Source: Actinomycetes bacterium
Lineage (GTDB): Bacteria; Actinomycetota; Acidimicrobiia; Acidimicrobiales; Palsa-688
Direction of reading: 5' to 3'
Length of the DNA: 44,264 nucleotides
NCBI GenBank assembly: GCA_021788115.1
Contig: JAJYLA010000012.1
Coordinates: forward strand, 1 to 44,264
Shown here: in pieces, positions 29,405 through 32,715 of the stretch
Layout of the letters: the number at the start of each line of letters is the position of its first letter
Position numbering within the stretch: position 1 is the stretch's first letter
Program-made: the position numbers and the translations under genes
Notes under the pieces: generated by a model
Database searches by the model: none
Seen by the model: only the letters and a program-made list of their open reading frames with translations
What the model was told of the DNA's origin: nothing

Positions 29405-30391
29405 GTGCGAGTAGTACACCTGCAGCGGCGAAGCTTCGCCGGGCACCACAGCATCGAGCGGGTGTTCGAGCAGGTGCGCGCCGCCCTACCCGAGCGCTAC
29501 CACGTCGAGGTCGTGGTGGCGGCCCGCCAGAGCACGGGCCTGCTGCCGCGCGCCGCGACGGTGCTCGACGCCCGCAGGCACCAGGGCGACGTCACGCACG
29601 TGACGGGGGACATCAACTTCGCCGGTCTCCTCCTGCGCCGCCGCAGCACGCTGCTCACCGTGCACGACACCGAGTTTCTCGAGCGGGCTGGACGGCTGAA
29701 GCGCCTCCTGTACGTGTGGCTGTGGCTGCGGCTGCCGGTGCGGCGCGCCGGCCTGGTGACCGTGCCGAGCGACGCCACACGGCGCGACCTGCTGCGCTGG
29801 GTTCGCGCCGATCCCTCCAAGGTCCGGGTCGTGCCGAACCCCGTCGCCGGCGGGTTCCGCCCCACCCCCCCGCCGGGGGGCCGGCCGGCGGTGCTCCTCG
29901 TGGGGACGCGCCCGAACAAGAACGTCGCCCGGGCGGCGGCCGCCCTCGAGGGGCTGGGCTGCTCGGCGGTGGTCGTCGGGAGTCTCGACGCCGAGCAGCG
30001 GCAGGCGTTCAGCCGCGCCGCTGTCGAGGTCCGCGAGCTCGGCGACGTGGACGACGAGGCTCTCCGCAGGGCGTACGAGGGCTGCCACCTGCTCCTCTTC
30101 CCCTCCACCAAGGAGGGCTTCGGCATCCCGGTGCTCGAGGCGCAGGCGGCGGGCCGCCCGGTGGTGACCAGCACCCTGCCCCCTCTCCGTGACGTCGCCG
30201 GCGGCGCAGCCTGCCTCGTCGACCCCTTCGACGTGGGGTCCATCGCGTCCGGGGTCCGCCGGGTGCTCTCCGACGCCGGCTACCGGGAGGACCTGGTCCT
30301 GCGGGGCCTGACCAACGCCGCCCGCTACAGCGCCGGGGCCGTCGCCGCCCGCTACGGCGCGCTCTACGACGAGCTGGCGAGCCGGGCGTAG
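29405..30391 (+). CDS. GT4-type glycosyltransferase
   Basis: A 328-residue GT-B fold glycosyltransferase, short for the family. The N-terminal Rossmann half includes LLTVHDTEFLE. The C-terminal half starts at VLLVGTRPNKNVARAA and has the donor-site motif FPSTKEGFGIPVLEAQAAG with the E-x7-E pair. Such enzymes add a sugar from a nucleotide donor with retention to a lipid-linked glycan at the inner membrane face. GTG 29405 has GAGGAGG 8 nt upstream. The last 28 bp overlap the convergent GT4 gene. Confidence 0.85.
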   Translation: MRVVHLQRRSFAGHHSIERVFEQVRAALPERYHVEVVVAARQSTGLLPRAATVLDARRHQGDVTHVTGDINFAGLLLRRRSTLLTVHDTEFLERAGRLKRLLYVWLWLRLPVRRAGLVTVPSDATRRDLLRWVRADPSKVRVVPNPVAGGFRPTPPPGGRPAVLLVGTRPNKNVARAAAALEGLGCSAVVVGSLDAEQRQAFSRAAVEVRELGDVDDEALRRAYEGCHLLLFPSTKEGFGIPVLEAQAAGRPVVTSTLPPLRDVAGGAACLVDPFDVGSIASGVRRVLSDAGYREDLVLRGLTNAARYSAGAVAARYGALYDELASRA

Positions 30392-31500
30392 ACGGACGCG
30401 AGGCCGCGGGCGGTCCTCTCCCAGCTGAAGGCGGAGGTGCGCGCCCTGCCGGCGCCGACCAGTCGGGCCCTCAGGTCCGGGTCGCTCAGAACCCGCTCCA
30501 GGGCCGCCGCGAGGTCGTCCACGTCGGCGGGGTCGGCGAGCTCCGCCGCGCCGCCGGCGACCTCGACCACGGCCCCGACGCGGGCCGCGACGACGGGAAC
30601 GCCCACGGTCATGGCTTCGAGCGGCGGGAAGCCGAACCCCTCGTAGAGGGACGGGTACGCGAGCAGCGCCGCCCCTTCGAGCAGCGCCCGGCGGGCGCCG
30701 GGGCCGACCGGCCCGGCCAGGACCACCCGCTCCCCCACCTCGCGGGGCAGTCGGGCGACGGCGTCGCGGACGGCCGGGGTGTCGGGCCCCTCGGCCCCCA
30801 CCAGCACGAGGGCCAGATCGGAGCGGCGGTCCGCCACCCGGGCGAACGCCCCCACCAGACGGGGCAGGTTCTTGCGCCTCTCCTGGCTGCCGACCGCCAG
30901 CACGTAGGGGCGGCCGGCCAGCCGGCCGGCCACCGCCGGGGAGACCGAGCCCTTCGGCCCGAGCGCCGGTATCCCGAACGGCACCACCGAGATCCGCCCG
31001 GCGGCGACCAGGCCCGGCCCGAAGTGCTCCTCGACCTCGGCGGCCACGTGCTCGGTCGTGACGTGCACGTGGGCGCCGCGGGCGATGGCACGCCGGAGGA
31101 CCGCCGGGAACGTCGCCACGACGGCGTTGGCGCTCCCGGGGTCGAGGACGAAGCCGATGTCGTTGACGGTGACGAGCGTCGGGTGCCGGCTCGGGGCGAC
31201 CACGAAGTTGGTGGCGTGCACCACGTCGGCATCCGCCAGCCACAGATCGAGGCGGGGCACGTCGCGGCGCGACCAGGCGGCGAGGAGCGCGCGCGTCGGC
31301 AGGCGGACGACACGGATCCCCGCCGGCAGGCCGTCGGAGCCGGTGCGGGCGCGAAGGCCGAGCGCATAGGGGATCAGCGTGGGGCCGTCGCCGAGGGCGG
31401 AGAGCGCGGCCCACGTCTCCTGCACGGAGAGGCCGATGCCCGTGCGGAACCCGAGCAGCGGCGTGACGTCCAGCGCGACCCGCGGCCTCGCGGCGCTCAT
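30364..31500 (-). CDS. GT4-type glycosyltransferase
   Basis: A 378-residue GT-B glycosyltransferase. It begins VALDVTPLLGFRTGIG (7-22), the usual start of mannosyltransferase-like GT4 proteins with the Gly-rich acceptor loop. VLAVGSQERRKNLPRL starts the donor half. YPSLYEGFGFPPLEAMTVG carries the E-x7-E motif. Similar proteins are mannosyl- or rhamnosyltransferases of polysaccharide clusters; the donor cannot be read from sequence. ATG 31500 is preferred, although an in-frame GTG at 31545 would add 15 residues. It is divergent from another GT4 gene and convergently overlaps a third. Confidence 0.85.
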   Translation of the reverse strand: MSAARPRVALDVTPLLGFRTGIGLSVQETWAALSALGDGPTLIPYALGLRARTGSDGLPAGIRVVRLPTRALLAAWSRRDVPRLDLWLADADVVHATNFVVAPSRHPTLVTVNDIGFVLDPGSANAVVATFPAVLRRAIARGAHVHVTTEHVAAEVEEHFGPGLVAAGRISVVPFGIPALGPKGSVSPAVAGRLAGRPYVLAVGSQERRKNLPRLVGAFARVADRRSDLALVLVGAEGPDTPAVRDAVARLPREVGERVVLAGPVGPGARRALLEGAALLAYPSLYEGFGFPPLEAMTVGVPVVAARVGAVVEVAGGAAELADPADVDDLAAALERVLSDPDLRARLVGAGRARTSAFSWERTARGLASVYARLASSS

Positions 31501-31535
31501 CGGCGCTGCCCGGCGGGGCGCGCCCAGGCCGCCGG

Positions 31536-31541
31536 TAGCAT
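31536..31541 (+). promoter_or_regulatory. -10 box for mini-ORF / GT4 transcript
   Basis: TAGCAT lies 8 nt before ATG 31550, the same spacing as at other nearly leaderless starts in this window. Confidence 0.4.
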
Positions 31542-31549
31542 CCACCCCG

Positions 31550-31573
31550 ATGATCGAGGCCCCCTCGCGTTGA
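31550..31573 (+). CDS. seven-codon upstream ORF coupled to GT4 gene
   Basis: ATG 31550 opens MIEAPSR and stops at TGA 31571-31573, which overlaps the TTG start of the glycosyltransferase (TTGA). With a -10 box 8 nt upstream, ribosomes would load on this tiny ORF at the transcript's 5' end and re-initiate at the TTG, which has no Shine-Dalgarno of its own. The peptide is unlikely to have a function itself; it would serve translational coupling. Confidence 0.4.
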   Translation: MIEAPSR

Positions 31574-32715
31574 CCGCCCGTCGCACCTTTCGTATCCTTT
31601 CGATCCAGCCGGTGGCGGACGGAGGCGGCTCCGAGGTCGCCCTGATCCGGCTGTTCCGGTGCCTGGCGGGGCGCGGCTGGGAGTGCCACGTCGCCGTTCC
31701 GGAGCAGGCTCGGCTGGCCGACGAGTATGCCGCCTCGGGCGCCGCCGTGCACGTCGTGGGCATGGCGCGCCTGACGACCAGCGGGGGGCCGGTACGCTGG
31801 GTGCGCTACGCCGCCGGCTGGCCGCCGACCGTCGCCCGCCTCGCCCGCCTGGCGCGAGACCTCGACGTCGACGTCGTGCACTCCAACTCCCTGCACGCCT
31901 GGCACGGCTGGGCGGCCGCCGCCCTGTCCCGCAGGCCGCACGTGTGGCACGCGCGCGAGATCGTGTTCCAGTCCCCCTACGCGCTCCGTGTCGAGCGCTG
32001 GCTCGCCCGGCGCTTCGCCGACCGGGTCGTCGCCGTGTCGGACGCCGTCGCCGCCCAGCTCGACCCGGCCAACGTGGTGGTCGTCACCGACGAGGCCGAC
32101 CCGGACCGTTTCGGCCCCGAGCGGGCCGGCCGGTTCCGGGCCGGCGCCGGCATCGCCGACGACGTGGCGCTGGTCGGGTCGGTGGCCCGCCTCGACACGT
32201 GGAAGGGCTTCGAGGTCCTCCTCGACGCCGTGGCGGACATGCAGGCCGCCCGCCCCGGCCTCGAGGTCGCGGTCGCCGGCGGCGCCGTCGAGGGCAAGGA
32301 GGACTACGCCGCGGCGCTGCGCCGCCGGGCCGGCGCCATGGCGGGTGTGCACTGGCTCGGCCGCCGGGCCGACGTCGAGGACCTGATGGCCGACCTCGAC
32401 GTCTTCGTGCAGGTCTCCACCGAGCCGGAGCCCTACGGGCTGGTCCTCGTGGAGGCGCTGGCGTCGGGGGTGCCCGTGGTTGCCGGCGCCGCCGGGGGTC
32501 CGCTGGAGATCCTCCGGGGGCTGCCGGAGCAGGCGGGAAGGCTGGTCCCCCCCGGCGACGCCGCCGCCCTCGCCTCGGCCGTGGTGTCGCTGCTGCCCGA
32601 GGGCCCCTCGTCGGCGGAGCGCCGCCGGGCGCGGGGGGTTCTGCGGCGCCCCTCCCCCGACGGGGCGGCCGAGATCTTCGAGGCCGCCGCGCGCCGACGC
32701 CGGCGCGGCGGCTGA
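31570..32715 (+). CDS. GT4-type glycosyltransferase
   Basis: A 381-residue GT-B glycosyltransferase. RILSIQPVADGGGSEVALIRL at the N-terminus (first part diagnostic) is the GGxE acceptor-site loop. HSNSLHAWHG and VWHARE follow, the C-terminal half begins at ALVGSVARLDTWKG, and EPEPYGLVLVEALASG carries the E-x7-E donor motif. TTG 31570 is inferred because the conserved fold starts at once and the TTG overlaps the stop of a seven-codon upstream ORF; no ATG or GTG in frame is nearby. It ends 37 nt before cofD, which has its own promoter. Likely role: envelope polysaccharide assembly. Confidence 0.83.
   Translation: MTARRTFRILSIQPVADGGGSEVALIRLFRCLAGRGWECHVAVPEQARLADEYAASGAAVHVVGMARLTTSGGPVRWVRYAAGWPPTVARLARLARDLDVDVVHSNSLHAWHGWAAAALSRRPHVWHAREIVFQSPYALRVERWLARRFADRVVAVSDAVAAQLDPANVVVVTDEADPDRFGPERAGRFRAGAGIADDVALVGSVARLDTWKGFEVLLDAVADMQAARPGLEVAVAGGAVEGKEDYAAALRRRAGAMAGVHWLGRRADVEDLMADLDVFVQVSTEPEPYGLVLVEALASGVPVVAGAAGGPLEILRGLPEQAGRLVPPGDAAALASAVVSLLPEGPSSAERRRARGVLRRPSPDGAAEIFEAAARRRRRGG

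Follow-up and report, generated by a model that had tools for sequence, protein, structure and literature searches.

How does a gene that begins with a poor TTG codon obtain its ribosomes? The window, a stretch of 44,264 nt that is a complete contig of a 3.58 Mb Acidimicrobiales genome in 238 contigs, carries such a gene, encoding a GT4-type glycosyltransferase (Table 1) with Pfam matches above the curated cut-offs (PF00534, 92.1 bits; PF13439, 61.8 bits). A sequence-only reading of this DNA had described a −10 box, an ATG 8 nt further on, codons for the peptide MIEAPSR and a TGA overlapping the TTG, and had proposed a designed translational-coupling device. All of these elements are in place: the codons are ATG ATC GAG GCC CCC TCG CGT TGA, ending at 31573, and the TGA has two bases in common with TTG 31570.

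Table 1. Features around the start of the plus-strand glycosyltransferase gene (window coordinates).
Feature	Position	Strand	Remarks
−10 hexamer TAGCAT	31536–31541	+	8-nt spacer to ATG 31550
Predicted transcription start	G31549 or A31550	+	Predicted from N6–N9 spacing of leaderless starts
Mini-ORF MIEAPSR	31550–31573	+	Seven codons, stop TGA
Weak Shine–Dalgarno-like GAGG	31556–31559	+	10 nt 5′ of TTG; N10
TTGA stop/start overlap	31570–31573	+	TTG start 31570–31572, TGA stop 31571–31573
GT4-type glycosyltransferase	31570–32715	+	381 aa, TTG start; PF00534, PF13439 and others
Remnant KVRRAVNA	31566–31589	−	N-terminal codons of opposing glycosyltransferase
Divergent GT4-type glycosyltransferase	30364–31500	−	Now adjacent to plus-strand gene

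With confidence a little above even, we favour a reading in which the leaderless mini-ORF at 31550 loads ribosomes that reinitiate on TTG 31570, the mini-ORF being a loader gained when the cluster was reshuffled. TAGCAT would act as the −10 box and the mRNA would begin with AUG or one base before it; the early start is conceivable because the base before the ATG is G (the commonest base just before a start at N8 is C). Ribosomes would load on the 5′-terminal AUG, translate seven codons, terminate at the UGA and reinitiate on the overlapping UUG to produce the glycosyltransferase, and the weak GAGG may help to keep the ribosome in place. The peptide as such would have no function, and the reshuffling of the glycosyltransferase cluster would have placed new DNA upstream of a TTGA start that already existed.

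The TTG start and its counterparts in relatives

The N-terminal strand ILS(I/V)QP is conserved across orthologues whose leaders are unrelated, which places the gene start upstream of it. TTG 31570 is the sole in-frame ATG, GTG or TTG in the preceding 170 nt of the window, and is the only usual start that retains this first strand. We aligned 26 orthologues on the strand (the window, L005–L028 and L038), the nearest being about 61–68% identical to the window gene. A fragment without the N-terminus (L029) and four loci of 35–40% identity (L030–L033) were dropped, and L034–L037, which are the same contigs as L005, L015, L012 and L014, were counted once; counts among the 26 are not all independent, because L006/L007, L023/L024 and L026/L028 are near-identical pairs. 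An NTGA start lies at exactly the place of TTG 31570 in 14 of the 26 (13 TTGA and one GTGA).

The sequence-only reading had named upstream in-frame starts in relatives as evidence against it, and these do occur in part: nine orthologues are leaderless in frame (L017, L018, L019, L021, L023, L024, L026, L027 and L028), and several relatives have an additional upstream in-frame ATG or GTG; in the 170 nt examined, L014 resembles the window in having only the TTG. An out-of-frame mini-ORF that begins at N6–N8 and ends on the gene start occurs in five, namely the window (7 codons), L010 (21), L013 (4), L015 (18, with a TTG start) and L038 (18), and the other 12 have neither arrangement. L010 and L013 have a common TAACAT-N6-GTG leader, and L015 and L038 both sit on a box at −100, where the outcome hinges on a single triplet; it therefore seems fair to count two or three independent gains in addition to the window. 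Ten of the 13 relatives with the same NTGA place lack any start codon in the coupled frame at N6–N9, which implies that the start is used there without a loader.

Leaderless starts, coupled frames and competing readings

To place the window in its genomic context, we ran a simple home-made gene caller on samples of this genome (0.64 Mb) and of eight family genomes (1.55 Mb), which gave 1,558 starts; the caller missed the window gene, which is therefore not among them. In this genome, TANNNT stands at N6–N9 of 56 of the 458 called starts (14 per position, compared with about 1.2 elsewhere), and the same concentration 5′ of starts is seen in all nine genomes. We take TANNNT-N6..9-RTG to be the leaderless signature of this lineage, as expected of leaderless transcripts, and the TAGCAT-N8-ATG of the window falls within the spacing of both genome and lineage. 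TAGCAT itself accounts for 14 of the 322 hexamers before in-frame leaderless-type starts in the nine family genomes.

Any TTGA start supplies a stop in the mini-ORF frame by construction, which leaves the −10 box, the ATG and the intervening open frame to be accounted for. In 20,000 dinucleotide-shuffled versions of the 150 nt preceding TTGACC, a TANNNT-N6..9-RTG frame closes on the fixed TTGA in 0.29%. Within 150 nt upstream of the 1,558 gene starts, out-of-frame ATG or GTG codons at N6–N9 closed on the start (as NTGA or with a −1 overlap) in 22 of 41 cases, compared with 29 of 142 at other spacings. After sites inside other called genes were removed, the excess persisted, with 18 of 37 coupled in the nine pooled family genomes against 20 of 116 at control spacings (Fisher P = 2.4 × 10−4) and 44 of 311 for ten control motifs (P = 4.2 × 10−6). 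For eight of the 18, a stop codon closes the frame no more than five codons before the mini-ORF; among the other ten, some may be the ends of longer genes missed by the caller, and the L149 mini-ORF, which was kept among the 18, resembles what we take to be an acyl carrier protein C terminus. At the N8 spacing, coupling was found in only one of seven out-of-frame cases. A mini-ORF pair before M50 peptidase genes (L074 and L126) had looked like a conserved loader peptide and was lost on filtering; it is presumably the C terminus of the preceding Dxr-like gene, Pfam having been run on the M50 protein only.

The claim that the TTG lacks a Shine–Dalgarno sequence was overstated, given the GAGG at N10. 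The strongest competitor to the loader accordingly takes the transcript from about 31549 to have an ordinary short leader, with the ribosome reaching TTG 31570 through GAGG and the seven-codon frame being incidental. GAGG at N10 precedes 23 of 1,343 starts, somewhat more than the control-motif mean of 13; relatives with the same TTG start mostly have GGAG or AGGA 10–11 nt upstream and for the most part lack a leaderless start codon in the coupled frame; and the stop of the short frame comes with any TTGA start, as noted above. Yet N10 lies outside the Shine–Dalgarno optimum of N5–N9, on the shoulder of the range of Shine–Dalgarno spacings, RTG at N6–N9 after TANNNT is a main start signature of the genome, and in mycobacteria a 5′-terminal ATG or GTG is reported both to be required and to suffice for leaderless initiation (Shell et al. 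2015, PMC4633059). We consider an ordinary leader rather unlikely. Both routes may also act together, as suggested by the position of GAGG on that shoulder and by the coupled genes, which taken together are not poor in Shine–Dalgarno-like matches (at least 4 nt in 64% of 22, compared with 54% of 1,343 others). RNA folding is unremarkable and no better than in shuffles (z = 0.50, 0.08 and 0.07), and a hairpin over GAGG (CGAGG-CCC-CCUCG), seen in a short fold only, was likewise not above shuffles.

Much less probable is that ATG 31550 is a present or recent in-frame leaderless start and that the sequence is one base short between 31553 and 31569, perhaps in the C5 run at 31560–31564, through an assembly error or a real deletion rescued at the TTG. 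With one base added, the ATG would indeed read into the gene; L026 and L028 show a leaderless in-frame ATG 54 nt before the anchor (−54), where the window has −53; and in-frame cases at N6–N9 outnumber coupled ones by 100 to 18. Against this, the nearest orthologues mostly share the TTG place rather than the −54 in-frame ATG, coupled mini-ORFs exist independently as a class, and single-base errors in short C runs are rare. Lower still is the probability that the gene starts elsewhere, either through transcription from farther upstream or with TTGACC 31570 as −35, TATCCT 31593–31598 as −10 and GTG 31609 as start: TTGACC-N17-TATCCT, inside the gene start, matches the sigma-70 consensus at nine of 12 positions, but initiation at GTG 31609 would delete the ILSIQP strand that is kept even behind unrelated leaders, the N10 spacing from TATCCT is past the leaderless peak, and no TTGAC −35 signal was found among the 322 in-frame leaderless-type promoters of the nine family genomes.

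Origin of the mini-ORF in a rearranged cluster

At this start, the nucleotide homology shared with relatives sets in at window positions 31564–31569 and extends downstream only, stray single matches to other loci beginning elsewhere. A scan of annotated genome contigs yielded five relatives only. In L005, L007 and similar relatives, the order is an epimerase, an opposing glycosyltransferase, the orthologue of the window gene, a homologue of the window's minus-strand glycosyltransferase (43–45%) and then CofD. In the window, that minus-strand glycosyltransferase adjoins the start; in several relatives, its best homologue flanks the plus-strand gene on the opposite side. The rearranged order and the break in homology together indicate that the −10 box and mini-ORF lie in DNA new to the lineage. 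By this comparison the MIEAPSR mini-ORF appears private to the genome. A designed device is thus too strong a description of something young and private, and neither the length nor the sequence of the mini-ORF is kept among relatives (conservation of its length and overlap had been proposed earlier as a check), the retained element being the NTGA start place. The ribosome-delivery mechanism has statistical and comparative support in the lineage as a class; support for this individual mini-ORF is indirect.

Twelve of the 14 NTGA places overlap, head to head, the first codons of the opposing glycosyltransferase (typically VRVAVNAEQLL...GGIGRY), and this overlap alone could preserve the TTG. The NTGA start is also retained in L010, which lacks the opposing reading frame, in the window, which has only the remnant KVRRAVNA of that frame, and in L038, where the opposing residues have changed and the start is now GTG (GTGA). 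The remnant was recognized by eye in frame-wise translations, and a tblastn search with the 29-residue remnant gave no match. The remnant frame (window 31497–31573, minus strand) closes with a TGA that shares bases with the start codon of the present minus-strand glycosyltransferase gene (ATGA at 31500), and no TANNNT was found in the 150 nt upstream on that strand.

Of the 12 relatives with the opposing gene, 11 carry a TANNNT within it at exactly −100 relative to the anchor, which probably means a more distant promoter and a longer leader in these relatives. This box is fixed 100 nt 5′ of the V/I codon of VQP in L005–L009, L011, L014–L016, L020 and L038, in versions that include TACTGT, TACAGT, TAGCAT and TACCAT. 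Its position suggests a promoter embedded in the antisense coding region of the opposing glycosyltransferase.

Coupled leaderless-type mini-ORFs in the order and at galT

Two of the coupled cases are galT-like orthologues (PF01087), and at this gene the arrangement is kept. Among the 17 family orthologues with the anchor motif (L179–L195; L196, which lacks it, was left out), 14 have a leaderless-type mini-ORF ending on the start as NTGA, compared with 0.18 expected from shuffled leaders. Ten of these mini-ORFs have 10–11 codons and four have 15–21, and their peptides differ (VPSETHYGLST, VRFDCRYISLP, VIILPACPASR and VGILPDPLLWR). The galT copy of the window's own genome (L191; G000:C21:2389-3357) has TACCTT-N7-GTG, 11 codons and TTGA; an in-frame GTG two codons farther upstream could be used as its start instead. 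Six family leaders (L179, L180, L181, L185, L187 and L188) contain a second TANNNT, which could drive an in-frame leaderless start directly. Outside the family, 38 genomes had a galT match and 28 were obtained as loci; the arrangement is present in nine of the 26 of these 28 scanned loci that have the motif, with L242 and L265 left out for lack of it and L264, anchored on a false motif, counted as other.

A class of this kind has been described in mycobacteria, where small ORFs with a 5′-terminal RTG have a TGA stop overlapping the start of the gene that follows; Shell et al. report that these RTGA-coupled leaderless ORFs are over-represented (23 of 220 compared with 32 of 1,000), that coupling is preserved as the peptide varies, and propose peptide-independent ribosome delivery, with joint action of coupling and the Shine–Dalgarno sequence suggested for operon junctions (PMC4633059). 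The window mini-ORF is out of frame with its gene and, at seven codons, within the published range of 5–50; it has the two-base overlap, as TTGA where the published definition is RTGA, and over-representation is found here too (18 of 37 in the nine pooled family genomes; 14 of 17 at galT). The mycobacterial class was defined with mapped transcription starts, whereas the present case comes from sequence in Acidimicrobiales. The loader reading is plausible and falls into this published class.

Other systems share single features with the window. At uPPE2–ppe2 of Mycobacterium tuberculosis, a short uORF likewise overlaps a start (AUGA, with no Shine–Dalgarno sequence at that start) and its translation is described as essential for PPE2 expression, mainly through termination–reinitiation, but this uORF has its own Shine–Dalgarno sequence and sits behind a B12 riboswitch (PMC11260477, 2024). 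In Escherichia coli, uORFs with a 5′-terminal AUG lie ahead of leadered genes, are ribosome-bound and in some cases affect the downstream gene; unlike the window, these genes have conventional Shine–Dalgarno sequences, and the abstract makes no mention of an NTGA overlap (Beck et al. 2016, PMC4965119). Short-ORF ribosome delivery and the bicistronic designs covered in a review (PMC12548453) use a short ORF solely to bring ribosomes to a close downstream start, as a general idea and in engineered constructs, and are described there without a need for a 5′-terminal start. Our literature search found no paper that describes coupled leaderless small ORFs either in Acidimicrobiales or at galT.

The recurrence of the class in the order and its retention at galT are more interesting than the window mini-ORF itself. 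We tentatively propose, at somewhat less than even confidence, that Acidimicrobiales regularly start genes, including those with poor TTG starts, with minimal, peptide-independent 5′-end loader ORFs of about 4–21 codons, which are quickly gained and lost at some genes (such as this glycosyltransferase) and kept with near-fixed length and free sequence at others (such as galT). TTG starts may be tolerated because ribosomes would arrive by termination rather than by Shine–Dalgarno pairing. If so, an initiation route documented in mycobacteria would also operate in a separate, largely uncultured actinobacterial order, galT would provide a ready set for comparison, in which the peptide is free and length and overlap are kept, for testing a loader-only role, and start calls and labels of absent Shine–Dalgarno sequences in these genomes would overlook a class of starts. 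Another GT4 gene of this genome (L081:8099-9211, plus strand) has a five-codon leaderless-type mini-ORF, VGGAR, that ends in GTGA.
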